Origin: a virus | Virus record (IMG/VR): IMGVR_UViG_3300028897_000188 | Span: 1-55,621 of that record | Length of the DNA: 55,621 nucleotides | Strand: one strand, 5' to 3' | Part shown: positions 8,001-49,943 of the stretch, in pieces | How the letters are laid out: the number at the start of each line of letters is the position of its first letter | How positions within the stretch are numbered: the first letter of the stretch is position 1 | The notes under the pieces: model-generated | Database searches by the model: none | Told to the model about the DNA's origin: nothing | Seen by the model: only the letters and a program-made list of their open reading frames with translations | Position numbers and translations under genes: made by a program

Positions 8001-8506
8001 CCCTTACCTAGTAAAGAATCAACCTGAGTAGGATATCCTACTGTTCCTCCACCAAAACCGTGATTTTCATTTTGAGTTGAATCTTTAAATTCATCTGCCG
8101 TTCCGTCACTTGACTCCTTTAGATGGAATACATGAGTAAATCCAGAATCCCAAACGGCTTGAGCCGCACTAGTTCCTACAGTACCTACATATTGAGTATT
8201 ATCTGGTTCACTAGAGTCATAATATAAAGTGAAATCTGCTCCGCTGGCTGGAAGATTAGGAATCTTGGTAAACACCCAAGCCCTTTCATTAATATCATCC
8301 CATACATCTACTTCTATATAAAGTTGATTGAGATTTTTATCTTCTATTTTCATCTTTAAAGAAGACGAACCAATCTTAGTGAAGATATCTGTAAGGTCTT
8401 CTGATGTAAGTCCAGATGCAGAAGCAAGAGGAATCATAACAGGGAAATCTGTTAAGTCTATTCCTGCTCCTGAGACATTAAATGTTATGTAATTATTCCA
8501 AGCCAT
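2039..8506 (-). CDS. Giant multidomain tail adhesin with DUF2341/LamG-like modules and polyserine linkers
   Basis: 2155 residues. The N-terminus (about 1-110) looks like a DUF2341 domain, followed by a concanavalin/LamG-like jelly roll (about 150-340). The pair recurs at about 415-820. Polyserine linkers lie near 352-412, 825-862, 905-957, 1485-1579, 1819-1880 and 2015-2037. A large unrecognised block spans 957-1485. Two tandem paralogous modules close the protein; both contain the motif LDISDRTA. DUF2341 and LamG folds commonly bind carbohydrate, so a glycan-binding tail surface protein is likely. The start ATG lacks a clear Shine-Dalgarno site: the preceding 23 nt after the upstream stop are almost all A/T. 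It lies between two other adhesin genes in the late tail operon. Confidence 0.85.
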   Translation of the reverse strand: MAWNNYITFNVSGAGIDLTDFPVMIPLASASGLTSEDLTDIFTKIGSSSLKMKIEDKNLNQLYIEVDVWDDINERAWVFTKIPNLPASGADFTLYYDSSEPDNTQYVGTVGTSAAQAVWDSGFTHVFHLKESSDGTADEFKDSTQNENHGFGGGTVGYPTQVDSLLGKGQRFGSSPDGQYIRTKGLDPDGRDANTVEAFFKTPSGSMPTNNGSIVMNPESVTSSSFNLVNINGTPRFFQYTPTGSGTANGATTLQIDTQYYMVGRWASGGPVEVFLNGILDGQSANVSGVIGRGVADRYGIGNWRVVSGREAQYHTIDEVRISSIERSVNWLKHTNATLRDNIITFTPSGASFSSSSFSSSSSSISSSSLSSSSSSSSSSSSSSSSSSSSSSSSSSQSSSSSSTSSSSSSGIPWKCTIPFSVSGSKIECDSASFSFPLKISNNSGSTGADLTHIFTELGEKRYKLKVTDEIGSQLNVEITRWIPSAGEATLYIGPSIVISGGTRYFTLHFGNDQEDNFDYVGSLGIPVSGDGRDFSNIGIVASAGMNVWDESYACVMHMEEIHDDPNALINRTYQSTKYSNLEGSAVNMDFGPSGCGGFISPGVRYQDNWCVSAGQGWQFTGKGLYMTGVLSTSVYGWPNSPGYVGIGSSDGMDYLGHTQVSVEAWVRCEARRPIGQNTSYIAKVNHAGIPSESSVFLGLSNGGVQGGIYSGGSWYRATGEQIPLVPSGANGKEWTYVAMAWGSGGRVRSYQNRAENLLITEGQLRSGTIGRRGDGGLIGQYGYLAGRPFKGYIDEVRYHRDYKGSGFLKTSMLSMRDDFVTYDAVSCSSSSSSSSSSLSSSSSSYSYSSSSSSFSFSQSSSSESSSSSSESRACPQYYGRECKAWPCNINDTTNEIMIADWCISSSSSSQSGSSSSESSSSSSYSSSSSSSSSSSSNSLSSSSSSSSGSSSSSSSSESSFAFEGLYFQMGGTNPDNPYAFPYGTVHNDNDRGDPVFVWNPATDDYAKILNAKGTDYVDFPCRRRDIAHWLDQTYMIFRWAFTPGGSAVLKGMYGDTEGDGEEYGYYTGNPWSNVEGTNRYEVDVLATGTIDGEEQVDVNTEWESQYRFGSPGDPPGFYYVSSDWVQSYSRDINTPYASKGLYPDEYFIGDPEYLEHASLFRVKSFSETIWQYKFWGNYAAIDRDPQPDCTKYDYTYSAVATFNLDLELVTPIGSEFLTGHSSGYFGGRGLYYEYSNCPGDAYARTLDPGAATWRTIGNIFDQPLQKGLGWARAATGRFKNFMHQVYVVIASRADTGYNFSGRAPNQFITYRHSDYILGYPAPSIMWSTCQYYYGSGWGLISNSVASCETVLGIPYPEYWEPFEKASPDHDWISGFWVAGTYYFTPSATSQVEDFTTAGWLEPDIEVIAGANSTGAIQASAVDPHTQSRSTNLENAIRAMIDLYYDSDETDIPTTIEPYLPLPFWRAPRENISLQSMYRKRISPESYSSSSASSSSTSSSSESSSSSSSSVSSSSSSRSSSSESSSSRSSSSRSSESWKSSVSYLSSSSSSSASESSSSESMSSSSSSISSSSSSFSSNCFTEDFVGVSGAQPTPFNIRENENDWNLSYLDGTPSGGLVVDYVNVSGGHAFNLNNRYAYRSEIPGVSGTIFDVVLDWSTSYQYPANADYTWISFLCISESPTDQLDNFKNIFGVYLAPGAGGSKYVRYYLRRQLGDVGGAFPDSWLSYPSYDSGNYSGKIRLRSEQIGPNSLNVRFYYKTDGVHDSWVQMYTQSYSTSASHYLHFGFGMGNVTDSVGTRGHISKIKGLSVIEAVNVSCQSSSSSSRSSSSSSISSISSSSSSLSFSSSSLSSSSSSVSSSSSSSSSSLSSSSSTSSSSSSQIPGACDNYFDDTFWSPHDIQYGQWDAVNQEWDKTTSRTIWLDADAGWKEGYTSNFIVVTLDNILPVSAGYGNFILVLNAANGSVNTGYQTVSAGQQMVLDISDRTADFNYISVQRQFGEDEAYSITNIRFCESSYSSSSTSQSSSSFSGSSSSSSSSGVGCDTYFEYGTYWDLVFSPPLLGSWDAVNQEWDSSGTGSLWLAPSAGTTWNVGYTNNYLKLTLNNITGGSGSFNISLTGGNGAKNFLGVAISDGVPISLDISDRTAPYSQLVLSVL

Positions 8507-8527
8507 ATTATTAATATTTATCTAAAT

Positions 8528-11500
8528 TTAGATTACATCTATCTCAAATGTCATTTCTGTTGCTCTACTCCAACGGATTCTCAACGCTCCTGAAGTTCCA
8601 TAGAAAGGAAGTACATTTGGATCAGGATTAGCATTAGTAAAGTCATATGTTTCTCTAAACATAAATTTAGCATATCCAGTTGGTAGAGACTGTCCTATAA
8701 TTGATTGTAAGTATGATATTCCAGCCCCTCCAAAATCAAAAGTAAACGCAGCGGCCCCATCTGGAAACTGACCAGAATTATCTATTTGAATTCCTGTTCC
8801 TGCATCCCAATCTGCTATCGTAGGTGGAACGGCATGATTTGATATCTCCATATACATCCCCTCTGTATATGGTGGACTTATTGAATCATCAGGGAAAAAG
8901 GCAACCGATGCACCAACAATTATCATCCTTGCGGCTACTACCGTACTAGCTGACGGTATACCAGATACATTATAAGTAACAACCGATCTCTCTAGTTCCC
9001 AATCAGAAGAATCTCTGCCTATATATCCTGTAATATATGTAGGAGAAAGAAATATACCTCCTGCTGTGGGAGAGTTCCTAACACCATCCCACGTTGCCGC
9101 ACTAAAACCTAGCGCTGCGCTTGATCCTGCTATTGGTGCGCTAAATGAAAATGTTGTAGCACTAGCAGAAGAACTTGACTCTGACGAAGAGCTTAGTGAA
9201 CTGGAACTTGAATAACTGGAGCTTGACGAATTAGAAGAACTAGATGAGGAGCTACTAAAACAGCTTAAACAAGCAGAAGTAGGTGGAGTCAAAAATCTAA
9301 AATTATAAAAAGCCATATCCAAGTCTGTTCCATTTGGATGCAATGTTGATGCTCTAAGCATTACTCTTATATCTTCTCCACTTGTGCTTCCAGCCCATTC
9401 CCATCTTAATTGTGAAAAATCAAAATGGTAGAAGTATAAAGTATTACCAGTTCCAGGCTTCACAATTCTGAATCTACCATTGACAGGATAGTTATTCGGA
9501 GAAGTTGAGCCATAATCAAAAACAGTTTCAGATCCACCAAGAGTTGTTCTTACTTGAAGTTGATTTCTATTTGTACCGACATTATACGTATTCCTTACTG
9601 TAATAGGATTATCATTAGCGGCTGGTAAAACAGGATGCAAACCAAATTCAAAATATGCTCCTGCTCCAACTACAGAGTAAGTTTCAATTGTCCAATCAAT
9701 AGATATATCGAAAGGACAATTATTAGGAATAGTCCATTCACTTTGAATTTCAGAGCTACGTGTTACTCCTGCTACGGCTCCGAAATTATCATATCTGTAG
9801 AAGTTAAGCTGACCAAATCCACTAGGAGCCGTAGGTGGTGGTGAATCAAAGTATGTAGCTGGTGAACCTCCCATATAATTATTTTGATTAAGAATTACTC
9901 CCCAACGATGATAGTCTGGATCGCCACCTGATATATCTAGTAAATCTTCCGCACAATTAGAACTGTAAGAGCTTGAGATACTTGAGGAGCTTGAGCTTGA
10001 ACTTGAAGTAGAGCTTGAACTTGACGATGGACAAGGAATCCCACCAGACACATTTACACAAAGGTCTGTAATTGTAGATATATGTCCTCTTACTGAATAG
10101 TTTCCTACATCTGTACCGACATTTCCAGCGGCAAATCCAAAATGTATATACAATGGATTCAATGATACTCCAAGATTATGTAATTCAGGAACACCAACAA
10201 AACCAGAGGGCCAAAATTCTACCCAATCATCGTCATGTCCTAGAAGAGGAGAATTATAATTTTTGTAGTAAAAATGTTCTTCTAATTGAAAATTCCCACC
10301 ACCAAGATCACGTATAATTCCTTTAAGTCTCAACCATCCTTGCCATGCCGCTCCTAAAGTACTAGGCATATAACAAGCAAATACTTCTCCATATCTATCT
10401 GGTGCTACTGGATGTTTTCTCCTATATTGTAAAACTTGTTGTGTATATGCTCCTCCACAATTATCACTAGGAGGAGGATATCCATCAAGACCGAGTTGTG
10501 CATAGAAAGAATTATGTACTCCCCACATTGATTTATGATTAGTAAAGTCATATGGACTTTCAGATAGAGCTAAGAAAGCCACCCAACTAAACGAACCACT
10601 ATTAGGTGAATATTCATAAGTGTTAATCCATTTAAGAGATACATCTACTATATTTCCATCAACTATAGGTATTGCTGTATGATAACTCCATCTATCCCAA
10701 AGTTGTCCATGACCAGCAAATTTCAAATAGGGCCATAAATAATTAGCATGAGGAATTTGTTCTTCTACTGGAAGAATCCCTCCATATTGATCCCATTCAT
10801 TTATTCTTACTTTCGTATAGTCAAGAACATCTCCCTGTAGAACTCCGTTTATAGTTCCAGCAGATGGTACATATCCAGAAGGATATAATATCCCTGCACT
10901 TGGCCCTGCACTAGTTATATACCCACCAGATGGATAATTAGAAAAAGTAAAACAGTTAGTAGTCTCACATCCTAAAGCCAAATTATAGGAAGATGAAGAA
11001 GATTTACTACTACTTGAAACTGATATTGAGCTACTTGAGGAAGATAAACTACTTGAGGAAGATAAACTACTTGAGGAACTTGAAGAACTTGAATATGAAG
11101 AGCTTGACTGACTACTACTACTAGAACTTGACGAAGATGGATGTAACCAGAAATTGACTAGCGGCCCAACTCCACTTGGATATCCAACCAATCCACCAGA
11201 CGGAGTATCTTCAAAGTCATGGAATATAGTCCAAATACTATCTGGACACCCACATTCTCTATGTAGATAAGTCAACGCCCATGCTTCTCCAGCCAATGTA
11301 GCCCATCCATTTACTGGTTGAGCAAATTTCAATTCAATGGTATCGTCATCTATAATACATACATTCTTAGGTTCTATACGTCTTGCTAATGCCGTAGGAT
11401 TTTTACCACAACCAGCACCTTCTAGTGATTCCCATGCCTGAATTACTACATATCTTCCAAGACCATGATTAATAGTCCATGTCTTTGTTGAAGTTTTCTG

Positions 11501-13582
11501 TATATGCAGATAGGTAGCAATACCAGCCGATGGAGTAGGCCCACCAGCCGACAGGAACCTACTTCCTGTAAAGAACGTATTAAAATATCCATTTGAGTCC
11601 AGAGGATATAGAGGAACAGAAGTAGCAATTCGCTCTTCCTTTGCAGGAGGAGCTAAAAATTCGTGATACAGAACATGCTTGTTAACTGGTCTTACATATT
11701 CCCAGTTTCGTATTAACTCATCTGCTAAAAATTTATTAATGATAAAATCGTCACCAGCAAATAACTCATTAAAAGGCTCAACATCAATCAGCGGCTCCGT
11801 ATTCAGATCCAATTCTACTATGTAATGAGGAGTTATTACTGGATGTCCAGTAGGCCCGACTCCTGTAGTCAAACGTGAAAAATCAACATGCTGTCTGAAA
11901 ACAGTTCCGAAGAACTGACCATCCAATCCGTTAGTGAATGAGTTCATTGCATGGAGTACAGTATAGTCAGGACACGCTTGTAATGTATGAGTAATTATCT
12001 CCGTTAGTTTCTCTTCTCTTCTCTTACCGTCATAAATATAAACTTCTAAAGTAGGAGAACCAGCGGAAGGACATGTCCTGTCTACTCCTATTCTATACCG
12101 TTTGCTGACTTCATAATCAGTCTTGGTTCCTATAGTAGAGTAAATAGTTGCTCCGTATTTCTCATATACAGCAAATCGTCTTTGTGTTCCTACCTTTTCC
12201 ATTGCCACACCAATCCAGTCATTAGGTGTGGTTCCGAATCCATAGACATCTTGACTGACACCATAGAAGATAAAGCTACAGTCTGTAACTGTTTTCGGAG
12301 ACATGGCAACTCCAGCACAATGCTCAAAGTCTCCAGAAAAACTTTGACCAGATAGAGTCAATGTCCTAGTCAAAGTATCAACGGTATCATATGCGGAGAT
12401 TCCTATAGAATATGTTCTGATATCAGTTACAAAAGAATTTAATTCTCTTGGATCATAACAAAGGAAACTTTCAGGTGGCCCACAATCCCATATTTCAGCG
12501 GTACAATTACCACTTGGAGCTTCCGTAGCGTGAACTGGATAGAAAGCAGGATTGAATTGAGAATACCATAAATCTCCTCCTCCACCAGATGGAAACTGAC
12601 CGTAGAATTCCAGCCAATTGTAGTCATTGATAGGATATATTTCTGGCCCAAAATAACTTCTTACTCCAGTAGGAAGTCCAGGGTGAAAGCCTGGAAATCT
12701 GTCATAACTCGCTTCATTCTTTAAAGTGATTCCATCCAGTTCAAATAATTCAGGCTGACACCACTCATCCCACCGTTCATAGACATTCATTACATTTTCA
12801 GAATTTGATAGATACAGTTTGTAGATAATATACAGAGCATTGTAAGCACCAATGCGCTTTAAGAAGTAAATCAGATTTTCTACCCATTCTCGGATATTCA
12901 ATTCTGACATCTCTTCTGCTATTTCTATTCCGTATATCTGAGCAATGTACCCTAACCACTTCAAGTCAATTTCTCTAGCGTCCATTAAAGACCATAGAGT
13001 TTTCAACATTGTATAAGGTTCATGGTGAACTTGATCAAAATAGACTTGTAACCATTCCTTTACATTGGTGGTCTGGTTATGTGCTGGTAAGGCTCTTAAT
13101 GCGTAGTCTTTAAGACCTTCAAATTCTATAGCATAGGTGTTTGAAGATCTACTTACGGGCCAAAGCTTTCCGAAGAAAGCAAATGTTCTTTTTTGATTTA
13201 CATAATTTCTATAGGCTTCATTTTCAGATCTAGCTAGCCAAGCATGGAAGAAGCTATCCTTACGGAAGTACATCTCATTGCCTACACCAACGGCACTTAA
13301 AGCTTCTGTCTCTGTATCTGTACGATACTTCTTGAAGTCATCATAGACCCCACGATACTCCATCTTGAAGCGATTACCATCTATTTCTTTAATGAGAAAC
13401 TTATGACCCACAAATCCTTTGGTAGCATCATTCTCATAGAGAACAGTAAACGCTCCTCCATCCGTCCATATACTTTGCCTTGGGCCAGCTAAGTAAGACA
13501 GTTGAGTACCAGTTTGTCTACTTCCTAAAATATCAAAATATCTTTGAAGTAATTGGTAATTGGGATCTGAAAACTTACCCAT
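8528..13582 (-). CDS. Tail protein I-like N-terminus fused to polyserine-linked adhesin
   Basis: 1684 residues. Residues about 120-260 resemble the P2 gpI / TIGR02242 baseplate-tail protein family, including the stretch around LKWLGYIAQIYGIEI. Near 640-760 are segments seen in phage tail proteins, including a W-x-I-N-H-x-L-G motif. Three polyserine linkers (about 814-866, 1184-1207, 1442-1472) separate beta-rich modules; the module after the first linker resembles a module in the 2155-residue neighbour. The N-terminus probably docks to the baseplate and the rest projects as an adhesin. P2 gpI is only about 180 residues, so this is a large fusion. A purine-rich AGGAGA lies upstream of the ATG. 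Tail location is well supported; ligand unknown. Confidence 0.8.
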   Translation of the reverse strand: MGKFSDPNYQLLQRYFDILGSRQTGTQLSYLAGPRQSIWTDGGAFTVLYENDATKGFVGHKFLIKEIDGNRFKMEYRGVYDDFKKYRTDTETEALSAVGVGNEMYFRKDSFFHAWLARSENEAYRNYVNQKRTFAFFGKLWPVSRSSNTYAIEFEGLKDYALRALPAHNQTTNVKEWLQVYFDQVHHEPYTMLKTLWSLMDAREIDLKWLGYIAQIYGIEIAEEMSELNIREWVENLIYFLKRIGAYNALYIIYKLYLSNSENVMNVYERWDEWCQPELFELDGITLKNEASYDRFPGFHPGLPTGVRSYFGPEIYPINDYNWLEFYGQFPSGGGGDLWYSQFNPAFYPVHATEAPSGNCTAEIWDCGPPESFLCYDPRELNSFVTDIRTYSIGISAYDTVDTLTRTLTLSGQSFSGDFEHCAGVAMSPKTVTDCSFIFYGVSQDVYGFGTTPNDWIGVAMEKVGTQRRFAVYEKYGATIYSTIGTKTDYEVSKRYRIGVDRTCPSAGSPTLEVYIYDGKRREEKLTEIITHTLQACPDYTVLHAMNSFTNGLDGQFFGTVFRQHVDFSRLTTGVGPTGHPVITPHYIVELDLNTEPLIDVEPFNELFAGDDFIINKFLADELIRNWEYVRPVNKHVLYHEFLAPPAKEERIATSVPLYPLDSNGYFNTFFTGSRFLSAGGPTPSAGIATYLHIQKTSTKTWTINHGLGRYVVIQAWESLEGAGCGKNPTALARRIEPKNVCIIDDDTIELKFAQPVNGWATLAGEAWALTYLHRECGCPDSIWTIFHDFEDTPSGGLVGYPSGVGPLVNFWLHPSSSSSSSSSQSSSSYSSSSSSSSSLSSSSSLSSSSSSISVSSSSKSSSSSYNLALGCETTNCFTFSNYPSGGYITSAGPSAGILYPSGYVPSAGTINGVLQGDVLDYTKVRINEWDQYGGILPVEEQIPHANYLWPYLKFAGHGQLWDRWSYHTAIPIVDGNIVDVSLKWINTYEYSPNSGSFSWVAFLALSESPYDFTNHKSMWGVHNSFYAQLGLDGYPPPSDNCGGAYTQQVLQYRRKHPVAPDRYGEVFACYMPSTLGAAWQGWLRLKGIIRDLGGGNFQLEEHFYYKNYNSPLLGHDDDWVEFWPSGFVGVPELHNLGVSLNPLYIHFGFAAGNVGTDVGNYSVRGHISTITDLCVNVSGGIPCPSSSSSSTSSSSSSSSSISSSYSSNCAEDLLDISGGDPDYHRWGVILNQNNYMGGSPATYFDSPPPTAPSGFGQLNFYRYDNFGAVAGVTRSSEIQSEWTIPNNCPFDISIDWTIETYSVVGAGAYFEFGLHPVLPAANDNPITVRNTYNVGTNRNQLQVRTTLGGSETVFDYGSTSPNNYPVNGRFRIVKPGTGNTLYFYHFDFSQLRWEWAGSTSGEDIRVMLRASTLHPNGTDLDMAFYNFRFLTPPTSACLSCFSSSSSSSSNSSSSSYSSSSSLSSSSESSSSASATTFSFSAPIAGSSAALGFSAATWDGVRNSPTAGGIFLSPTYITGYIGRDSSDWELERSVVTYNVSGIPSASTVVAARMIIVGASVAFFPDDSISPPYTEGMYMEISNHAVPPTIADWDAGTGIQIDNSGQFPDGAAAFTFDFGGAGISYLQSIIGQSLPTGYAKFMFRETYDFTNANPDPNVLPFYGTSGALRIRWSRATEMTFEIDVI

Positions 13583-27767: not shown

Positions 27768-28934
27768 TCAACGATTGTTGAAAATTATCTTAGGCTCTAC
27801 TACAGCTTCTAAAGGAAAAAGCTCATCCTTCATTGGTAGTAAAACTTTAAACATGTATTCGATTTCTTCTTCAATCGTCCTTGTAGGTTTATAATTCAGA
27901 TTTCTAAGTTTGTCAGTAACATAATGGTAGTAATGTTCTCCTGTATATTCTACCCTTGGTGTCTCTATGTTACTCTCTTGAACTTCGATACCAAAGTTTT
28001 TAGAAACCTTGCCTACCATGTTTGCAACATCATTCATGGAGTGCCATTCGCTTAACTGATTCCACACTTGAACACTCCCTGCCATAGCTGGATTGTTTAC
28101 TGCTATCATTAAGGCTTGAACGCTATCATTGAGACTTAAAAATCCTCTTTGATGGTTTCCTTCTCCGTATATAGTCAAAGGAATTCCCAATACAGCTTGC
28201 ATGACAAACCTGTTAATAACCGTTCCTCCAGCTTCGTCTGTATCCAATCTGCTATAGATTTTATGCTTATCAATCTCATCCGTATAGATACCAAACACAA
28301 TAGATTGCTGGACATCCGTACACCTTAGATCCCAAGCTCTTGCAAGGTAATCAATCAAATAGGTAGAAGCAGTTTTACTACAATGGTAGATGCTCCCTGG
28401 TCTACGTGGATAAATCATCTCATTGCTTTTTCTACCCTTATGCTCGACTGTGAAATATCCCTCTTCAATATCAATATTGGAATAATGGTCATACTCTCCT
28501 GTAGTACCAATAGTGATATAATGACACTCTGGAGTATATTTCTTTATAGTCCATAAAAGATTATTGGTTCCAAGATAATTATTTGATAACACCATTTCAG
28601 CATTTTTTCTCGACTTCATGCTGTATGGGCCAGAAGGATTATGAGCAAGATTAATTACTACATCTGGCTTAAAATCCTCAAACATGTTCTTTAAAATTTC
28701 TGGTTCACACTCAATGTCTATTTCCTCAAAACAAAATGTACCATCGTACATATCATTAAACAGAATAGCTTTATCGTTCATGTCTAAAAGAGGAGTAGCA
28801 GACATGCTACCCATTCCCTCTATCCATTCTCTTCTCCAGAAGTTATCGAAACCGATTACTTCTCTACCTTCTGCTAACAATCTTTGAGTCAAAGCATTTC
28901 CGATATAACCATCACAACCGAATACGAAAATCAT
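27768..28934 (-). CDS. UDP-sulfoquinovose synthase (SQD1)-like NAD-dependent epimerase
   Basis: 388 residues. The Rossmann start GCDGYIGNAL is followed by the SDR tyrosine motif at IYHCSKTAST. The sequence then follows SQD1 closely: RCTDVQQSIVFGIYTDE, RLDTDEAGGTVINRFVMQA, IYGEGNHQRGFLSLNDSVQ and PRVEYTGEHYYH. SQD1 adds sulfite to UDP-glucose to give UDP-sulfoquinovose. The adjacent glycosyltransferase could use the product. A GGAGG site precedes the ATG. A related branched-sugar epimerase is possible. Confidence 0.8.
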   Translation of the reverse strand: MIFVFGCDGYIGNALTQRLLAEGREVIGFDNFWRREWIEGMGSMSATPLLDMNDKAILFNDMYDGTFCFEEIDIECEPEILKNMFEDFKPDVVINLAHNPSGPYSMKSRKNAEMVLSNNYLGTNNLLWTIKKYTPECHYITIGTTGEYDHYSNIDIEEGYFTVEHKGRKSNEMIYPRRPGSIYHCSKTASTYLIDYLARAWDLRCTDVQQSIVFGIYTDEIDKHKIYSRLDTDEAGGTVINRFVMQAVLGIPLTIYGEGNHQRGFLSLNDSVQALMIAVNNPAMAGSVQVWNQLSEWHSMNDVANMVGKVSKNFGIEVQESNIETPRVEYTGEHYYHYVTDKLRNLNYKPTRTIEEEIEYMFKVLLPMKDELFPLEAVVEPKIIFNNR

Positions 28935-38559: not shown

Positions 38560-39204
38560 TTACCTCTCTATTAACTCATCCCATATCTCCTTTCCCTTAG
38601 TAAGATCAAAAGGCATATCTAAGTCATGCAAAAGACTAAACACATCTCCAAAGTTAAAAAGAAAATTCGGAAAGTAAAGTAGTCTATATGGAATTCCAAG
38701 TTCTAATACTCTAGTAAAAAATTCTGCAAAGTCAATCTGATAATCCTCTAACTTGGTTCTTGGTTTGGGATCATCAAAGGATTCTGGAAGAGATTTTCTT
38801 GATCCCATTATATCTTCTATCTTCCTATGGCAGATAATGAGTTTGAAGTCTTGTCTCACGCTCCACCATGCTTTAATAAGCTCTGGATGCCACGTTATTC
38901 GTGGATCTTTGAAGACATCAACTTTGCCTTGTCTCTCATCTTTATCTACTGCATTGATAGCATCTCTATAAGTAAATCCTTTCCAATAATCTCCCCATGC
39001 TTCAACACTCAAATCAATTTCTTTCCCCTCTTTCAAAAATCTATGGTAAAGGTCATGTGTGATAGTATAAGCCGTAGATAGCTCCATTCCAGCCCTTATA
39101 TCAGTATTCCATGATACATTCTTACCTAAACCAAACCCCACTTTTCCTAAATACTTAGTTAAAATACTTGTACCACATCTGCCTAATCCAGTAATTATAA
39201 TCAT
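38560..39204 (-). CDS. Sulfotransferase-like P-loop protein
   Basis: 214 residues. The N-terminus TGLGRCGTSILTKYLGKVGF has the 5'-phosphosulfate-binding loop pattern of sulfotransferases, and FKDPRITW the 3'-phosphate loop. Such enzymes move sulfate from PAPS to sugars or other acceptors. In the same window as a sulfosugar-synthase-like gene it hints at sulfated or sulfonated glycans. The start has GGGAG; a strong hairpin lies just upstream. Confidence 0.7.
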   Translation of the reverse strand: MIIITGLGRCGTSILTKYLGKVGFGLGKNVSWNTDIRAGMELSTAYTITHDLYHRFLKEGKEIDLSVEAWGDYWKGFTYRDAINAVDKDERQGKVDVFKDPRITWHPELIKAWWSVRQDFKLIICHRKIEDIMGSRKSLPESFDDPKPRTKLEDYQIDFAEFFTRVLELGIPYRLLYFPNFLFNFGDVFSLLHDLDMPFDLTKGKEIWDELIER

Positions 39205-39750: not shown

Positions 39751-40809
39751 CTAAAAATGATAGCTACCACCATCAGTTAGAGGATTTCTTTTATCTTTTT
39801 CCGCTAAATCCCAAGAGACATAATTTGATTCTCGACCACGACCAAAACGGATCTTCTCTTTGAACTCCTCTTTCAACTTTTTTTCGTCAAGTTCTACCTC
39901 ATCCATATTTTTGATCTTTGCGGTGACTCGCAGAAAAGCTCCACAAGGAGTTTTAACTCTGACATGTCCAGCGATTCCATCTTTAGCAATCAGAAGACTT
40001 ACATTGTGATTGCTGTTAATGAAATTTTCATCATGCTGTGAGAAACCAGCTTTGTCTCCCTTTGCTCCACCCATTTCATGGTGAGAGTGCATGACTCCTA
40101 CAACGCTAACCTTGTTATACTCATCTGTTAGAACTTTACTGACAAGAGCAGAATTTGCGTTCTGGTTAGGTAACAAGAGATCCATGACTTCTACTTCATT
40201 TTCGGATTTCCACCTACCCACAAGATATGCCAGCCATTCTTGGCTACCAGCCCATTTCATAAACAGCAAAGCTTTCTTTCTGGCAACGGAAGACATATAG
40301 ACAACCGCTTTATCAGGAGCTTTACTACATGCCGTAACACAATCAAGTTCTTCGGTGACATCCCAAAACCCATCTTCGTCTTCATGGATTCCATCCTTGT
40401 CTTCTCCATTGCCACCATGAGCGGCAGGAGCGGCAGGAGTAGTAGGATCGTGATAGACAATTGTACCACCTTGAGGATTCGTGTCAAACTCATCCGATTG
40501 TAATTCCATTTCTCTAACTAGAAGAATGGCATCAACCAGATCTTTATGTTGTTCACTAACCCTACGTACATGTCTCCTAGAACCCTGCCGTAGCTGTACT
40601 TTACAAGCATTAGCAATTGATTTGTGACTATACTCCGCTTCTGGATCTGTCAGATAATTAATGATCAGTCCTTGTAACGGAGTCAAGTTATTCTCATCAA
40701 TTGCTTCGATAACCTTTGGATGTAAACTTAGCTTTTCCATAATTTTTTCCTTTCTATCCTTTCTTAATCTTTTTTGATAATTGGCTCTATGTATTCTTGG
40801 ATCTATCAT
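39751..40809 (-). CDS. JAMM/MPN+ metalloprotease (ubiquitin-like deconjugase, candidate)
   Basis: 352 residues. The C-terminal half is a JAB domain: Glu201 in EWLAYLVG, then HSHHEMG (His241, His243) and FSQHD (Ser267, Asp270) give the zinc-binding JAMM set, with about eight extra residues inserted between the His and Ser-Asp parts. The N-terminal 90 residues look helix-turn-helix-like; a low-complexity Pro/Gly/Asp linker follows. It should process or remove the Ubl encoded in the same operon. Start overlaps the E1-like stop (ATGA); an ATG at 40740 with AAGGA is an alternative. Confidence 0.85.
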   Translation of the reverse strand: MIDPRIHRANYQKRLRKDRKEKIMEKLSLHPKVIEAIDENNLTPLQGLIINYLTDPEAEYSHKSIANACKVQLRQGSRRHVRRVSEQHKDLVDAILLVREMELQSDEFDTNPQGGTIVYHDPTTPAAPAAHGGNGEDKDGIHEDEDGFWDVTEELDCVTACSKAPDKAVVYMSSVARKKALLFMKWAGSQEWLAYLVGRWKSENEVEVMDLLLPNQNANSALVSKVLTDEYNKVSVVGVMHSHHEMGGAKGDKAGFSQHDENFINSNHNVSLLIAKDGIAGHVRVKTPCGAFLRVTAKIKNMDEVELDEKKLKEEFKEKIRFGRGRESNYVSWDLAEKDKRNPLTDGGSYHF

Positions 40810-41390
40810 CTATCAAACCTGAAAAGTTTCTCCACGCTGGAGATTACTTCTTTTTTCTCATACTTCATAACCTTTGCTACTGCTAAAGCCGCTACAATCA
40901 TAGCAGGAACAGCCCATGAAGGAACAATGGTATATCCTTCTCCGTCTTCTCCAAACTCCGCAACGGAATTATGGATACCAAAATTTTCTCCATCATAACC
41001 AGCTTTGAAATATTTTGCTCCCATCTTTCTAGCAATCTCTTGGTTCTCCGTTTGAGCTTTCGCCTTATCGGTACAGTCAATAACCCAATCGGTTTTATCT
41101 CCCATTTCATTAAAAGGAAAGGGATAGGAATAGACAATACATTCTTCTCTGATTCCTTGAATTGCTATCTTTGTGATATCGGCTTTGTTCTTCCCAATAT
41201 ACCTGTAGGGAATATCCAAACGGTTTAGGTTATGCTCTTCCAATGTATCAGGATCATAAAGAACAATTTTACCAATACCAGACATTGCTAAAATCTTAGC
41301 TACCCAATAGCCTATTCCACCACACCCCACAACTGTAACTGTTTGCGACTGATTGAGTTTAAGCTTTTCCTGTCTCTGATAAAGACCCAT
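40806..41390 (-). CDS. E1-like ThiF/MoeB-family adenylyltransferase
   Basis: 194 residues, a minimal E1 adenylation domain. It has GCGGIG (22-27), the acidic D46, NLNR (54-57) and the CTD motif (106-108), all ATP/Mg-binding features of ThiF/E1 proteins. It lacks the CxxC zinc pairs and an obvious catalytic cysteine beyond the Rossmann core, so it may only adenylate the Ubl C-terminus or pass it directly to the E2-like partner. A GGGAG site precedes it. Confidence 0.87.
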   Translation of the reverse strand: MGLYQRQEKLKLNQSQTVTVVGCGGIGYWVAKILAMSGIGKIVLYDPDTLEEHNLNRLDIPYRYIGKNKADITKIAIQGIREECIVYSYPFPFNEMGDKTDWVIDCTDKAKAQTENQEIARKMGAKYFKAGYDGENFGIHNSVAEFGEDGEGYTIVPSWAVPAMIVAALAVAKVMKYEKKEVISSVEKLFRFDR

Positions 41391-41406
41391 TGTTTTCTCC
41401 CTTCAT

Positions 41407-42285
41407 TTAACCATCTAAACCAGTATCCCAAACATCTTCATCTTCTGTTTTCTTTTTATTTCCGTCAAGAACTTTACCAAAATCTTTAGTTATTGTAGTC
41501 AAATGATCTCTAACAGTTTCTATTTGAGGTAATCCAGTAGGATTGCTTGTAGCCACGCTACCTTCATTGATAGTCTCAAGTACTGCTAGCGCATCTTTGG
41601 CGCAAAAAACGATATCATCTGGAGTACTCCAGCTTGAAGGTTTTTGCCATTGACCCCAACAATCAGAATCATTACTCATTTTATGATAATGCCAGAACGG
41701 ACTCATATTGGCATCTGGATTGTGAGTAGTTATTTCTACGATTTGACTACCCTTGGTTCTGATCTTTATAATGATATCTTTAACCAGGCGATTCCGCAAT
41801 GCTCTATCAATTGATTTTGGTTTTTTGGCTCTTGATTTTTTGAAAAATTTGGCTTGATATTTTCCACGAAATAACCATAACAATTCATCATGCACTCCCT
41901 CATTCTTTACTACCATGAGTCCTTTCTTTGCATGAGTGTATGTTATATCTGGCATCATTGCGGCATTGTTATAACGCTCTTGAAGCTGTCTCTCTTTGCG
42001 CTCCAATTCGTTTTGCTTTTGCTGATGCATGGTGAGAAGTTGATTGATCTTAGTATTGATCTTGTCTCTAATCCTTTGTTGTTGGGCGTTTAGCTTTTCC
42101 CTAAACTCTCCACGAATTTTCTCTTCTAGATCCTCATCTTCAATTACTTCCATATCAGAGAATCGAAAAGTTTTACCAGCAAAATTTAGAGACAGTCCAC
42201 TTGCCTTGATTTCCTCTAAAGTTATGGACTCAAGTACTTCAATCATTTCAACTTGACGTTCATTGACTTCCTCTTCAAAAGACAT
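41407..42285 (-). CDS. E2-like ubiquitin-conjugating protein (candidate) with coiled coil
   Basis: About 292 residues from the chosen ATG (a GTG three codons earlier is possible). Residues about 45-110 form a charged coiled coil. The C-terminal domain has HNPDANMSPF, then HYHKMSNDSDCWG, placing a cysteine (Cys209) after His/Pro-rich motifs much as in prokaryotic E2 families (H-P-N ... C-x-G). It is encoded between the Ubl and E1 genes. Fold assignment is by motif and operon context; a structure prediction would settle it. Confidence 0.6.
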   Translation of the reverse strand: MSFEEEVNERQVEMIEVLESITLEEIKASGLSLNFAGKTFRFSDMEVIEDEDLEEKIRGEFREKLNAQQQRIRDKINTKINQLLTMHQQKQNELERKERQLQERYNNAAMMPDITYTHAKKGLMVVKNEGVHDELLWLFRGKYQAKFFKKSRAKKPKSIDRALRNRLVKDIIIKIRTKGSQIVEITTHNPDANMSPFWHYHKMSNDSDCWGQWQKPSSWSTPDDIVFCAKDALAVLETINEGSVATSNPTGLPQIETVRDHLTTITKDFGKVLDGNKKKTEDEDVWDTGLDG

Positions 42286-42299
42286 GGCACACACTTATC

Positions 42300-42427
42300 C
42301 TTTCGTCACAAATTAAAGTAGGGATAGAATAGCCGATCTTCTATTTTAGAGGATAAGTTGACGGTGTTGGTGGATTCTCTTACTGAATAGAGACACAACT
42401 ATCCTATCCCAAAACGAAACGAAAGCT
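42300..42427 (-). promoter_or_regulatory. Structured spacer between Ubl and E2-like genes
   Basis: The 130-nt gap has no ORF with a clear start. GGGATAG near one end can pair with CTATCCC near the other (about 90 nt apart). It may tune E2 expression relative to Ubl. Structure is by eye only. Confidence 0.35.
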
Positions 42428-42709
42428 TCAACCAGCTTCGTCATAAGGTCGGAGTTCGACTCGGTGATCTGGCTCAAACTCTGTAGGAGCCGTTGATTTA
42501 CGGACTTCTACACCATTCACGTAACAACGGAACTTACCGAAACCAGCATCCAGAGCCGCATTTTTAACGGTCTGTAAAAAAGGTGCTCCTGTTTCTACAG
42601 AAATGTAAGAACCATTAATAAGGATGCTAGCTGTTCCCTCTGGTGCTTCCAGAGCGGTAGTAGCTTCTCTGTCTTCTCCTGTACTTTGATCAAAAATGTT
42701 GTCTTCCAT
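42428..42709 (-). CDS. Ubiquitin-like beta-grasp modifier (Ubl)
   Basis: 93 residues: about 25 flexible N-terminal residues, then a beta-grasp-like sequence (SILINGSYISVETGAPFLQTVKNAALDAG ... CYVNGVEVRKS ... HRVELRPYDEAG). It ends directly in glycine, so no processing would be needed before activation. It is the first gene of the operon with E2-, E1- and JAMM-like genes and has a near-perfect promoter and GGAGG site. Codon use is GC-richer than its neighbours, consistent with high expression. Confidence 0.78.
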   Translation of the reverse strand: MEDNIFDQSTGEDREATTALEAPEGTASILINGSYISVETGAPFLQTVKNAALDAGFGKFRCYVNGVEVRKSTAPTEFEPDHRVELRPYDEAG

Positions 42710-42756
42710 AATAGACCTCCAATTTTAAATTAATGGTTTTCAAATTACGTACTCCC

Positions 42757-42785
42757 ATCATACACTAATCGAAAACATTTGTCAA
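42757..42785 (-). promoter_or_regulatory. Strong sigma70 promoter of the Ubl operon
   Basis: TTGACA (42780-42785), 17-nt spacer, TATGAT (42757-42762). It starts transcription about 40 nt upstream of the Ubl ATG. Confidence 0.88.
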
Positions 42786-42860: not shown

Positions 42861-43610
42861 TTATCTTTGTTGCAATGATAACAGACAATATTTTTCAGTA
42901 CCGTCCTCCGCATAAACATACGTCATTCCTAACTCATTGTCCACGTCATATGTAAATTTAGCTTTGAATTTTTTTTCGATGTCAATCACATTCATTAAGT
43001 TTACCATATCTTTAAATGAAAAGCAAAGGGATAAATCATCTCTATCAATATCATCTAAATGAAATTTCAAACCATTAGAATGTTGGTTGTCCTTATCGGC
43101 AGTTTCTAAAAATACCTTTTTATCTTTGACATCCAAATAAACTTTACCAAATCTGGCTCCGATTTTTTTGATCTTGTCAAATCTCTTCATAAACTCTTCA
43201 TCAACATCAATTTCAAAAAACCAATCAACATCCTGCTTGACATCTGGTGTGCCAAGTCTCTTAGGTACTGTAGGATAACAAAAGGAAATTCTACTCTTTT
43301 GTCTACCATCTTTAAGAACCATGTATCCAGCACCAGCCGATCCTTCGTAAATGTCTATATCAATTTCTTCATTGTCGAATAACTGAATAAAAGGCATTAC
43401 GTTTTGTGCCACATCTGAAAAGTTAAAAGAAAGCTCTTCATTAGTATCAAGAATATCATTCGGAAGCTTGAGAAGTGAAATACTATTTCCATCATTGGAT
43501 CTCATATCAGATTCAATAGTATCACCACATCTCAATTGAAGAGTCTCAATACTAAAATTAAGAGTTGCTTTTTTCAGAACATCTTCCAAATTAGTTAGGT
43601 TAATTTTCAT
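42861..43610 (-). CDS. Sliding clamp, T4 gp45-like
   Basis: 249 residues, slightly longer than T4 gp45 (228). Alternating beta strands and short helices, with FSFKDMVNLMNVID and a closing GMTYVYAEDGTEKYCLLSL strand, fit a processivity clamp. Position directly after the clamp-loader genes mirrors T4 order 62-44-45. In T4 the clamp also activates late transcription. Assignment relies on context plus pattern. Confidence 0.75.
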   Translation of the reverse strand: MKINLTNLEDVLKKATLNFSIETLQLRCGDTIESDMRSNDGNSISLLKLPNDILDTNEELSFNFSDVAQNVMPFIQLFDNEEIDIDIYEGSAGAGYMVLKDGRQKSRISFCYPTVPKRLGTPDVKQDVDWFFEIDVDEEFMKRFDKIKKIGARFGKVYLDVKDKKVFLETADKDNQHSNGLKFHLDDIDRDDLSLCFSFKDMVNLMNVIDIEKKFKAKFTYDVDNELGMTYVYAEDGTEKYCLLSLQQR

Positions 43611-43627
43611 AACACTACCTCCACAAA

Positions 43628-44005
43628 TTATTTTTTCTTTCTCATATTCATATAGAAGCTCACTATCATTCGTGCTTCTCTGGTTGATAGATTCTGATGC
43701 TTCTCCTTGAGCTTCTTTATCCCTGCATCCAATACTTCTTCTGACTTTTTCTTGGGCCAGCGGATAAAGCGTTTGCCTTTAGGAATTGAGTGCCACAAGT
43801 ATTCATAAATAGCTTCATCACCTAATGTATACAGGTAAGGCAATACTTTGTCAACCACTTTTACAAGATCTTTGAAAAAAGAAAAATGTAGACAAAGAAA
43901 ATAAGCAGAAGCCACTTTCTTATCATACTCCACCTTTCTTGACTTCAAACAGATTTGGTCTACAAAAGTAAACGGAGTTATTTTATCAGGATCTTTCATA
44001 TGCAT
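43628..44005 (-). CDS. Clamp-loader small subunit, T4 gp62-like
   Basis: 125 residues. The segment LGDEAIYEYLWHSIPKGKR matches T4 gp62 LSDEAHFNYLMAAVPRGKR closely. T4 gp62 is 187 residues, so this form is shorter. It works with gp44-like ATPase to open the clamp. An alternative ATG lies two codons later; neither start has a strong Shine-Dalgarno, and it overlaps the upstream gene by 20 nt, consistent with coupling. Confidence 0.8.
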   Translation of the reverse strand: MHMKDPDKITPFTFVDQICLKSRKVEYDKKVASAYFLCLHFSFFKDLVKVVDKVLPYLYTLGDEAIYEYLWHSIPKGKRFIRWPKKKSEEVLDAGIKKLKEKHQNLSTREARMIVSFYMNMRKKK

Positions 44006-44594: not shown

Positions 44595-45491
44595 TCACAC
44601 AATTTGCTGGTAGATCATACTCATTACCATTCGCATGAAGTTAATCTCTGGAATGGGATAAGTATTGTGTCTATTCAAATGTTCACCTATTTCCAATACT
44701 GCATTTCCAGGCTTCTTAAATTCTCCAGCGTTCTCATAGCAGTAGAAATATAGATCTGGATAATCAACATAATTTCCTCTTAGCTCTTTACGGATCTCAT
44801 CTACATCTTTAGTAATGAGTAGTTTGAATATCTTCTTATTCAATGCTTCCGTTGCGGAAATACTTGAGCCTACAAGCTTTCCATCAATAGTATTCTCATG
44901 TAGTGACCATATGGTTTTACGGATATCAGGATAACACTTCTTAACGATATCCATAGCCACCTTACCATCAAACTCCACATCTTCCTGTCTCAAGATATTC
45001 AACACATGTTTGCCTATTTCTTTAATAGGTGGATTCTCAAGACCCACAACCCAACATCTGGATCTAAGCTCTGGTAGCATGTCATTGATATTGTTTGTTA
45101 GAAAAACAAACCTAGTTATTTTATGAACATCCTCCATTAACTGTTTCAGCATCTTTTGAGCGTTCTGTTTTGAAGTAGAAGTCAAAGAGTCAGACTCATT
45201 CAAAACACATATCTGCATTTTTGTCATCGGCATTGAAGTAGAAAACGGTTGAATCTTTTCTCTCACAATATCAATACCTGTCTCATCGGAAGCATTAAGC
45301 CACATCTTATCGTAGCCAGTTTCCTTGAGAAGTATATTTGTGAAGGTTCCTTTTCCCACTCCTGCCGTACCATAGAGCATGAGATTCGGAACCTCTTTTA
45401 AAGCTTTTCTAAGTTTAGGTTTAATGTCTTCATTGAGAATCATGTTCTCAAATTCTTTTGGTTCATATTTGAACGTCCATAGATCTCCCAT
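44595..45491 (-). CDS. Clamp-loader AAA+ ATPase, T4 gp44-like
   Basis: 298 residues. Walker A GTAGVGKGT (about 41-49), Walker-B-like VLNESD, the SRC motif (RSRCW, about 139) and an EPKEFENMI N-terminal box match gp44/RFC-type loaders. T4 gp44 is 319 residues. AAAGGAG precedes the ATG. Confidence 0.88.
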   Translation of the reverse strand: MGDLWTFKYEPKEFENMILNEDIKPKLRKALKEVPNLMLYGTAGVGKGTFTNILLKETGYDKMWLNASDETGIDIVREKIQPFSTSMPMTKMQICVLNESDSLTSTSKQNAQKMLKQLMEDVHKITRFVFLTNNINDMLPELRSRCWVVGLENPPIKEIGKHVLNILRQEDVEFDGKVAMDIVKKCYPDIRKTIWSLHENTIDGKLVGSSISATEALNKKIFKLLITKDVDEIRKELRGNYVDYPDLYFYCYENAGEFKKPGNAVLEIGEHLNRHNTYPIPEINFMRMVMSMIYQQIV

Positions 45492-45531: not shown

Positions 45532-46443
45532 TCAATCTTCTTCTACATACTCATCAAAGATATCTTCAAAAACATCTTTAGGTACTACAGCCGTTCCTTT
45601 TTGACTAACAACATAAGCGGCACATTTATTAGCTATCTTTGCTGATCTTAACACACTCAATCCTCTTTGTAAACATATTGCCATGATTGCAGTAACGGTA
45701 TCTCCAGCACCAATTACTTCGCTATCGAAAACTTTTTCTCCCTTGATATGTTCCGCAACATCCAATGTTCCATTAGAAGTCCTTTCCATTAGAGTCATAC
45801 CCCTGTCTCCTTTAGTAATAAGGATGTTTTGAGGTAAAGCTGGATGTCTCCATCTCATTTGATGGTATTCGGATTCATTAGGAGTGACTAGTAAAACTCC
45901 TTCTGGATACAAAGCCCAGTTTTCAGGTTTCGGATCAATTATGATTTTATCCTTATAAGCTCCAATCCAATCCATGAATTTTCTACTCACCACTCCTTTA
46001 GCATAATCGGAAACAATTATCATATCATACTCTTCTTCCAGCATTTGATGAGTCAAAGCAATATGAGTGGTCTTCTCATGGTAAAAATCTATTTCTGTTT
46101 TATCTTCAATGTCAATTCTTATCAATTGCTGATTGTCTGCAAATATACGTTCCTTTATAGTAGTAGGATTGTTATTAGGCATGTACCAAAATTTAATTCC
46201 ATCTTCTTTTAAAAGTTTCTGTACTGATTCTCCAGCTTCATCTTGACCGAAAGCACCAGCTATATCTACAGTACCTTTACCAGTTATAGCAGAAATGTTT
46301 CTGGCACAATTAGCGGCTCCTCCCAAAACATCATATTGAAACTTTACATCTACTACTGGAACTGGAGCTTCTGGAGAAATCCTATTTGCTTTACCCACTA
46401 CATATCTGTCAATCATTAAATCACCAATGACTAGAAATTTCAT
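45532..46443 (-). CDS. D-glycero-beta-D-manno-heptose-7-phosphate kinase (HldE domain I / RfaE1-like)
   Basis: About 303 residues from ATG 46443 with GGAGG 5 nt upstream. It starts with FLVIGDLMIDRYVVGKANRI, then EAPVPVV and GGAANCARN. The ribokinase signature near 240 is VIGAGDTVTA. All match RfaE1/HldE-N, which makes heptose-1,7-bisphosphate. The HldE second domain is missing here but an equivalent is encoded on the plus strand at 49149. A hairpin leader may control translation. Confidence 0.85.
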   Translation of the reverse strand: MKFLVIGDLMIDRYVVGKANRISPEAPVPVVDVKFQYDVLGGAANCARNISAITGKGTVDIAGAFGQDEAGESVQKLLKEDGIKFWYMPNNNPTTIKERIFADNQQLIRIDIEDKTEIDFYHEKTTHIALTHQMLEEEYDMIIVSDYAKGVVSRKFMDWIGAYKDKIIIDPKPENWALYPEGVLLVTPNESEYHQMRWRHPALPQNILITKGDRGMTLMERTSNGTLDVAEHIKGEKVFDSEVIGAGDTVTAIMAICLQRGLSVLRSAKIANKCAAYVVSQKGTAVVPKDVFEDIFDEYVEED

Positions 46444-46458
46444 AAGTACCTCCTTGGA

Positions 46459-46522
46459 GCGGAGCACTTACAGGAAAAATTAAAAGGAGAAACAAAAACA
46501 AAAAAACCTGTAAGCACTCCGC
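46459..46522 (-). promoter_or_regulatory. Long leader hairpin with possible pseudoknot on the heptose kinase ribosome site
   Basis: GCGGAG-TG-CTTACAGG pairs with CCTGTAAG-TG-CTCCGC around a 32-nt T-rich loop, just after the tRNA-Gly and before the heptose kinase. The loop contains CTCCTT, which can pair with the AAGGAG of the Shine-Dalgarno. Could sequester translation start or mark tRNA processing. Confidence 0.5.
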
Positions 46523-48901: not shown

Positions 48902-49152
48902 TGGAATTAACGATTGAAAGACTTCAAGAAGCATATAAAAAAATAAACGGAGTAGAATATGACTTAAACAAAAGATGGGAAGAAGGGATTTCTCACCATC
49001 CTAAAAGTGAAGAGTTGTTTAAAAAGATTCAAGAAGTAGATTTTATTTGGAATGACGATCATTTTTGCTGGAAGTATGGTGGAGATGGAGACAACGGAGA
49101 AATCTTTATGTATGTTTTGGATGTCATATTTGAAGAAGAGGATAAGAAATGA
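48901..49152 (+). CDS. Hypothetical protein
   Basis: 83 residues, acidic, with a helix near the start and WNDDHFCWKYGGDGDNGEIFMY. No family recognised. It overlaps neighbours at TAATG and ATGA and is in the nucleotide/heptose gene run. Confidence 0.6.
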   Translation: MELTIERLQEAYKKINGVEYDLNKRWEEGISHHPKSEELFKKIQEVDFIWNDDHFCWKYGGDGDNGEIFMYVLDVIFEEEDKK

Positions 49153-49943
49153 TTTACTGTTTTGATATAGATGGAACCATATGTACAAAAGCTAGTCATT
49201 ATAAATTTGCTAAACCAATACAACCAATGATAGATAGGATAAACAAGCTGTATGAGAACGGTAATACAATTATTCTGTCTACTGCCAGAGGGAAAGGAAG
49301 CGGAGTGGATTATGAGGAGCTAACCAGACAACAGATTTTTAAATGGAAAGTAAAACATAATGAGATACTTTTCGATAAACCTTCCGCTGACTTCTACGTA
49401 GATGATAAAGCCGTGTTGCCTGAAACACTCTATCTAAAGGAGTACCGTCAAGTATTTACAAACGGATGTTTCGATATAATTCACGCTGGACACATCAAAC
49501 TTCTAAGGGAAGCATCAGAGCTTGGTATTGTAACAGTAGGAGTTAATTCAGATGACTCCGTTAGAAGGATCAAGAGAGAACCAGTTAACAAGCTGGAGGA
49601 TAGGATGGAAGTTCTATCTTCTATAAGATACGTGGATAGAGTTATACCGTTTACTCAGGATACTCCATTTGATTTAGTTATGCAATTACTACCAGATGTG
49701 ATTGTTAAAGGAGCCGATTGGAAAGGTAAGGATGTTAATGAATTTAAGTTTGTAGAGTCTTACGGAGGGAAGGTTCATTTTGTAGAATTGCTTACTGGTT
49801 ATTCAAGTAGCAAAATAATGTCTAGTTGGGAAGATCGCTATACGGAGTGTTTATGTGATTGTGAAAAAGAGATTTGTGGTATTTGTAGCCAGCCGTATTG
49901 TGATCATGTGAATTGTAAATGTAGAGAATGGAACATGAGATAA
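49149..49943 (+). CDS. HAD phosphatase fused to RfaE2/HldE-C-like cytidylyltransferase
   Basis: 264 residues. Residues 1-100 form a HAD domain (CFDIDGT, LSTARG). Residues about 105-235 have FTNGCFDIIHAGH, GVNSDDSVRRIKR and a GYSSSKIM end, matching HldE-C, which makes ADP-heptose. A Cys-rich tail (CLCDCEKEICGICS...) may bind zinc. With the kinase at 45532 it could give the last three ADP-heptose steps. The HAD part resembles capsule phosphatases rather than GmhB, so its step is inferred. Confidence 0.8.
   Translation: MIYCFDIDGTICTKASHYKFAKPIQPMIDRINKLYENGNTIILSTARGKGSGVDYEELTRQQIFKWKVKHNEILFDKPSADFYVDDKAVLPETLYLKEYRQVFTNGCFDIIHAGHIKLLREASELGIVTVGVNSDDSVRRIKREPVNKLEDRMEVLSSIRYVDRVIPFTQDTPFDLVMQLLPDVIVKGADWKGKDVNEFKFVESYGGKVHFVELLTGYSSSKIMSSWEDRYTECLCDCEKEICGICSQPYCDHVNCKCREWNMR

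Follow-up and report, generated by a model that had tools for sequence, protein, structure and literature searches.

Conserved four-gene operon beside a phage sliding clamp gene

Prokaryotic cascades that combine a ubiquitin-like modifier (Ubl) with E1, E2, and JAMM proteins are known from bacteria, mostly on mobile elements or as anti-phage systems. Whether a phage may own such a cascade, and what it would modify, is the question raised by four adjacent genes in the virus record IMGVR_UViG_3300028897_000188, analyzed in full (positions 1 to 55,621; hereafter the window). This 55.6 kb stretch contains T4-type genes, namely those for gp44 and gp62, a sliding clamp, RNase H, primase, and ribonucleotide reductase. 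Directly downstream of the clamp gene, four minus-strand genes follow in the order Ubl, E2, E1, and JAMM. A preliminary description of the sequence had read these open reading frames (ORFs) as a conjugation/deconjugation set; they are present as described, and 36 relatives, a family of large uncultured phages, carry the same set. The operon probably encodes a complete phage-borne cascade for Ubl conjugation and deconjugation. Its features are as follows:

42757..42785, minus strand: σ70-type promoter TTGACA-17-TATGAT, just 5′ of the Ubl gene, 11/12 consensus match
42428..42709, minus strand: putative Ubl modifier, 93 amino acids; N-terminus disordered, predicted β-grasp at residues 25–88, C-terminal Gly93
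41407..42294, minus strand: putative E2-like conjugating protein, 295 amino acids from GTG, or 292 amino acids from an in-frame ATG at 42285
40806..41390, minus strand: E1-like ThiF adenylyltransferase, 194 amino acids, minimal, without a conserved catalytic Cys
39751..40809, minus strand: JAB/JAMM isopeptidase, 352 amino acids

The E1 stop and the JAMM start overlap as ATGA, and 16 bases separate E2 from E1 and 133 bases Ubl from E2. Altogether 65 fetched loci contain the full set in this order; they represent 36 distinct E1 sequences (every pair less than 95% identical; 25 groups at 70% identity). Key active-site residues are conserved among relatives that share 30–70% identity. Because gene set and order are conserved in 36 distinct loci, a chance assembly of the four genes is excluded.

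Tandem strong promoters had been proposed for the operon; a single strong promoter was found ahead of it (TTGACA-17-TATGAT, 42785-42757), which is conserved in relatives. A σ70-type promoter is located just before the Ubl gene in 26 of the 33 clamp-linked loci, mostly with a spacer of 17 bases (score of at least 10/12; none in shuffled sequences). The rate was lower at the neighboring genes (clamp gene 8/33, gp44 3/25, gp62 1/27), and separate transcription of the modifier by a host-type polymerase therefore seems likely.

Ubl and E2-like proteins

The Ubl, whose C-terminus reads ...RPYDEAG, was modeled with AlphaFold2 (AF2; predicted local distance difference test, pLDDT, 77.5) in the order strand-strand-helix-strand-strand-strand. 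Its structural neighbors in Foldseek and VIA comparisons (Z about 6.3–7.4) are Raf Ras-binding domains (β-grasp), SUMO, ubiquitin, UFM1, MoaD, and ThiS, and the structural alignment puts Gly93 at residue 76 of ubiquitin. Both characteristics of β-grasp Ubl modifiers, the fold and the C-terminal Gly, are thus found in the model and the sequence, respectively. The free terminal glycine noted in the preliminary description is also borne out by the relatives, since 29 of 30 Ubls keep it. Sixteen of them end at this Gly and 13 have 1–5 more residues, which implies C-terminal processing of the Ubl.

The predicted catalytic residue of the E2-like protein, Cys212, is part of the motif F.HYH.....DCWG (numbering from the GTG start; the Cys209 of the preliminary description is the same residue counted from the ATG). 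It is invariant (32/32), as is His204 (32/32), and His202 is present in 31/32 sequences. An invariant active-site Cys with an upstream His motif, as in UBC/E2 proteins, is therefore found. The H-Y-H lies 8–10 residues before the Cys, and W..P and then a helix follow, which corresponds in order and similar spacing to the HPN-C-WSP of UBC proteins; the best alignment lays HYH...C...W..P on HPN...C...WSP. A Cys after His/Pro motifs had been proposed, of which the Cys and the His are present (F-x-H-Y-H...D-C-W-G) and the Pro is missing at this place.

According to the AF2 model (pLDDT 77.6), the E2-like protein consists of a helical/coiled-coil N-terminus, an E2-like domain at about residues 112–266, and a C-terminal W motif (W289). 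A long helix (residues 54–110), in which the coiled coil expected from the sequence is predicted, precedes a β-meander, and another helix follows the Cys. The VIA-align neighbors of residues 110–265 are mostly UBC/RWD/UEV folds with middling scores (Z 4.6–5.9). The existence of the system had been made dependent on a β-grasp fold of the 93-residue protein and an E2 fold of the 295-residue protein. The former is seen in the model; as to the latter, an E2/UBC-like domain is modeled and the Cys spacing fits an E2 active site, but the profile match is not significant and Z values reach only 5–6. With middling confidence, the E2-like protein can be regarded as containing a divergent UBC-like domain, a weaker assignment than the predicted Ubl fold. 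A search of BFVD with the E2 model gave no match with E under 0.001 and no protein clearly named as an E2; a UBC protein of African swine fever virus was listed at E 0.16. E2 matches obtained by tblastn in 50,697 phage records were pilot proteins at E 1–10 and were rejected as chance-level. One relative (L088) has tandem duplicate E2-like genes (8231-9220 and 9227-9973) with CWG in both, perhaps an E2 pair.

Three of the four proteins share a short acidic motif anchored by a tryptophan (YWDNS, DVWST, D.WEV, EWNTG) in their disordered tails. It was found at the Ubl N-terminus, at the E2 C-terminus (W289), at W149 of the JAMM protein, and in JAMM C-tails, and also in the divergent sets L109, L111, and L113 (VWDSN, DVWEAG, SWDTG). 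It may be a docking motif shared by the components of the system. A role as a general replisome docking motif was rejected, since other ORFs showed no enrichment (5 seen versus 3.55 expected).

E1-like and JAMM proteins

The E1-like protein was assigned to ThiF by Pfam (PF00899, E 2.8e-23), and its matches in the PDB are MccB, E1s, MoeB, and BubCD. The GxGGxG...NxxR core recognized earlier is present as G22-C-G24-G25-I-G27 and N54-L-N-R57. G22, G24, G25, G27, D46, K69, and D108 are each conserved in 42/42 sequences and R57 in 38/42; the core of the E1/ThiF superfamily, consisting of GxGGxG and the Arg, Lys, and Asp of the adenylation site, is accordingly complete. The canonical thioester Cys is lacking, as already suspected from the single sequence: no Cys column is invariant among the 42 proteins (C23 29/42, C84 19/42, C106 32/42).

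In the JAMM protein, the core of which spans about residues 149–330, the predicted HxH...SxxD was identified as H241-S-H243 and S257-x-x-D260 and is accompanied by the JAMM glutamate E191, so that the JAB/JAMM metal site is complete. E191, H241, S242, and H243 are conserved in 39/39 sequences, S257 and D260 in 38/39. A Prok-JAB match was obtained for 17/17 relatives scanned (best E 1.4e-9), and the protein of the window itself stayed under the cut-off (E 0.011). The nearest PDB sequences of the JAMM profile are RPN11/AMSH, with marginal E-values (0.06–0.9). The extended loop pointed out in the preliminary description is real, yet private to this phage: it consists of a 6-residue insert that the aligned relatives lack. 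The additional N-terminal part of about 140 amino acids varies in length among relatives and looks like a small domain of helices that may bind DNA; it gave no match to Pfam.

Distribution and phylogeny

Viral scans with single proteins yielded nothing beyond identical copies of this phage. An alignment of four E1 sequences led to relatives at 39–61% identity, and a refined alignment to relatives at up to 71%. Using tblastn, no Ubl or JAMM relative was detected in the 50,697 phage records, and E1 gave only distant ThiF matches. The E1 matches in MT835977 and in Acinetobacter 'phage' MD-2021a were dropped because they are located in cell-type TcdA/MoeB loci; a Prevotella match is likewise TcdA-like. 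Among 84,980 bacterial and archaeal genomes, searched with a single peptide pattern of limited reach, just one close E1 match came up, on a contig of 16 kb from a Thermoplasmata metagenome-assembled genome (MAG). This contig also carries gp44, gp62, and the clamp and is therefore probably misbinned phage. All 36 sets are located on viral contigs save one clean match in this MAG bin. Two phage E2 copies were additionally seen on short contigs of a Thermoplasmata MAG (L127; G001 contigs C50 and C54), probably misbinned phage DNA as well. A search of 398 genomes from a single bacterial phylum, run without a positive control, yielded no E2.

In the E1 tree, rooted on MoeB because midpoint rooting was misleading, the 36 viral proteins including that of the MAG contig form a clade with no clearly cellular member (supports 0.92–0.99). 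Its sister is the multiubiquitin-type E1 of an Agrobacterium plasmid (support 0.99), and the E1s of PRTRC systems and crAss-like phages stand apart. Four divergent phage loci (L109, L110, L111, and L113) contain E1, JAMM, and a small upstream ORF, which ends ...AKDARG in three of them and is a probable Ubl; the system is therefore wider than the 36 counted sets.

Sliding clamp neighborhood

The genes upstream of the operon are the following:

42861..43610, minus strand: gp45-type sliding clamp, the gene next to the operon on its upstream side; E 5e-4 to phrog_223 (DNA polymerase processivity factor)
43628..44005, minus strand: gp62-like clamp loader A subunit; PF16790 at E 1.4e-5, with 26.0 bits slightly short of the 27-bit cut-off, and synteny
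44595..45491, minus strand: gp44-like clamp loader AAA+ subunit; PF00004, E 3.9e-9, Gp44_lid, E 2.5e-5, and tblastn matches to T4-like clamp loaders

The neighbors gp44-gp62-gp45 of a T4-type replisome locus are all present. In relatives, the clamp matched phrog_223 in 9/23 cases (best 3.8e-8), and archaeal PCNA heads a weak list of PDB matches. The arrangement gp44-gp62-clamp-Ubl-E2-E1-JAMM, or its part from the clamp onward where the contig ends, was found in 33/36 distinct sets. When the search was started from the clamp and was blind to the Ubl, 34 of 44 clamp loci had a Ubl gene downstream. The clamp link is shown by computation, as are the folds or motifs, the conservation of the operon, its promoter, and the invariant residues. 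This link is strong but not absolute, and the operon therefore looks accessory though fixed in position. Clamps lacking an adjacent Ubl gene are scattered over the clamp tree.

Two very long ORFs elsewhere in the window (2039-8506 and 8528-13582; 2155 and 1684 amino acids) have poly-Ser linkers that recur between domains and probably encode tail or adhesin proteins. By eye, genes resembling those of a sugar kinase (HldE-like), a nucleotidyltransferase, an epimerase, and a sulfotransferase were recognized (45532-46467, 49149-49943, 27768-28934, and 38560-39204), which suggests phage-encoded surface-sugar chemistry.

Comparison with known systems

The Bil system (BilABCD, type II BUB) likewise combines Ubl, E2, JAMM, and E1 in one operon, and its JAMM protein is predicted both to process the Ubl to maturity and to take it off again. 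BilA consists of two Ubl domains, BilD of an inactive and an active adenylation domain plus a Cys domain, and BilB has a CEHH motif (PMC11354881). In contrast, the phage Ubl is a single β-grasp protein of 93 amino acids according to its model, the phage E1 is a single domain of 194 amino acids without a conserved Cys, and no conserved His follows Cys212 in the phage motif HYH...CWG. The proposal of a variant distinct from Bil agrees with these differences. Furthermore, the operon is encoded by phages, whereas Bil is directed against them. In type II CBASS (Cap2/Cap3), E2 and E1 form a fusion protein, while they are separate genes in all phage sets.

Separate genes for a small Ubl with a C-terminal Gly, E2, E1, and JAB were described for the row 6d operons (Iyer et al., 2006; PMC1779556), and row 6d/PRTRC systems share this composition with the phage set. 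The PRTRC order C-F-B-A-ThiF with a ParB family gene is absent from the phage set, and none of 18 phage E2 members matched Prok-E2_D (PF14460). The row 6e multiubiquitin-E1 operons, of which the Agrobacterium plasmid is an example, provide the sister E1 in the tree, but differ by a multiubiquitin gene and an E1 enlarged by an additional N-terminal region; the Cys is reported to be missing from their E2-like domains (PMC1779556). As functional analogues, Bil, CBASS, and PRTRC have parts and probably also chemistry in common with the phage operon, but the defining features examined for each of them are absent from it.

In crAss-like (Steigviridae) and Flavobacterium phages, ThiF and JAB (HSHNNM..FFSGTD, HHalign E 4e-16) are also found, preceded by a candidate E2-like gene (HSHV...GGCLG); the genes lie in a replication module near primase and uracil-DNA glycosylase. 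These sets differ in the order E2-JAB-E1, in larger proteins, and in a separate E1 clade near PRTRC. Profile comparison with these sets demonstrated no E2 or Ubl homology, and the Ubl profile matched neither PRTRC_C nor the proteins flanking the crAss-like sets. The loci concerned (L209-L212, L219, and L220) belong to cultured and uncultured phages (crAss001 gp79-gp75, DAC15, cr126_1, FpV4, cr128_1, and cr106_1), and their ThiF, JAB, and E2-like genes are annotated just as hypothetical, metalloprotease, or thiamine biosynthesis. The location of this separate lineage in a replication module lends support to the broader notion that phages retain modules of this kind next to replication genes. 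By analogy only, the genetic link between a putative Ubl cascade and a sliding clamp recalls the ubiquitination and SUMOylation of eukaryotic PCNA; here the clamp is T4-type, and no E3 was seen.

Proposed mechanism and possible targets

We infer the chemical steps of the cascade from homology, and its target is likewise a proposal. A host-type promoter of its own would drive production of the Ubl in excess. Ubls of relatives with 1–5 residues after the Gly would be trimmed by the JAMM protein; that of this phage would be born with a free Gly93. The minimal E1 would adenylate Gly93 using ATP and, because it has no conserved catalytic Cys, might hand the acyl-adenylate straight to Cys212 of the E2-like protein. 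The latter, anchored through its coiled coil and the tail with the W motif, would move the Ubl onto a target lysine, from which the JAMM protein could remove it again.

Several results weigh against such a cascade. HHalign comparisons of the E2 core were not significant, either with UBC (E 0.5; UBC sequences entered by hand) or with PRTRC_B (E 0.04–0.05). Foldseek retrieved no E2 match below E 1 for the E2-like model in the PDB, and neither the E2-like protein nor the Ubl was recognized by Pfam, PHROG, or NCBIfam models. One Ubl (L090, ...DEASAS) has lost the C-terminal Gly, and no E3 was found in the system. The proposed target is opposed by about ten related clamps without an adjacent Ubl gene, by eight such clamp records in which no E2 was found (including records of 133 and 171 kb, maybe fragments), and by three divergent operons (L104, L105, and L107) that have no clamp beside them. 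In addition, no clamp Lys specific to Ubl-bearing phages was found.

The conserved place beside the sliding clamp, which the preliminary description had overlooked, suggests replication first as the role of the operon. From position alone, the phage replisome is the likeliest target class, and the sliding clamp itself might tentatively be named as the first candidate. It is conceivable, if still doubtful, that the operon is a virus-specific Ubl system in which a minimal Cys-less E1 charges the E2 directly and the phage reversibly tags its own clamp or replisome, as a counterpart of PCNA control by ubiquitin or SUMO. A close rival, which we consider possible with similar reserve, is that the same cascade is aimed at the host and tags host proteins or defense components (Bil, CBASS) early, the clamp site being a stable place for an early gene. 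Host-type σ70 promoters are typical of early phage genes, and a strong one is private to the operon; the sporadic absence from related phages would also fit an accessory takeover or counter-defense function. However, accessory counter-defense genes usually change position, whereas 33/36 lineages have the operon in the same place behind the clamp, and no known anti-defense family was identified nearby.

Alternatively, the Ubl could be a sulfur carrier of the ThiS/MoaD type, its thiocarboxylate serving a biosynthetic or tRNA step, with the JAMM protein as a trimming protease and the 'E2' as a sulfurtransferase. ThiF/MoeB are the closest relatives of the E1 in curated libraries, sulfur-carrier E1s also lack the catalytic Cys, and the invariant E2 Cys could carry sulfur. 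This is nevertheless unlikely, given that no rhodanese, desulfurase, ThiG/MoaE, or cysteine synthase gene was seen in the operon, that the E2-like model resembles UBC folds, and that a full JAMM resembling RPN11/AMSH and a constant link to replisome genes are present. Modification of virion or tail proteins has a precedent in Bil, which tags tail fibers, and tail genes are present in the same window; such targets nevertheless appear highly improbable, since every clamp-linked relative has the operon among replication rather than structural genes, and its promoter is of the host type.

A search of the open-access literature found no report of such a phage four-gene cascade (subscription papers and most preprints were outside the search). 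The place beside the sliding clamp is the main new point, together with the private promoter seen in most sets; both this place and the ownership by phages are surprising. A cascade that apparently belongs to phages and was retained long in evolution beside the clamp would mean that viruses of bacteria themselves tag proteins reversibly, and replication-linked Ubl control would be testable with a minimal set of four proteins. Viruses of bacteria may then regulate proteins, perhaps those of the replication machine, as our cells do with ubiquitin or SUMO.

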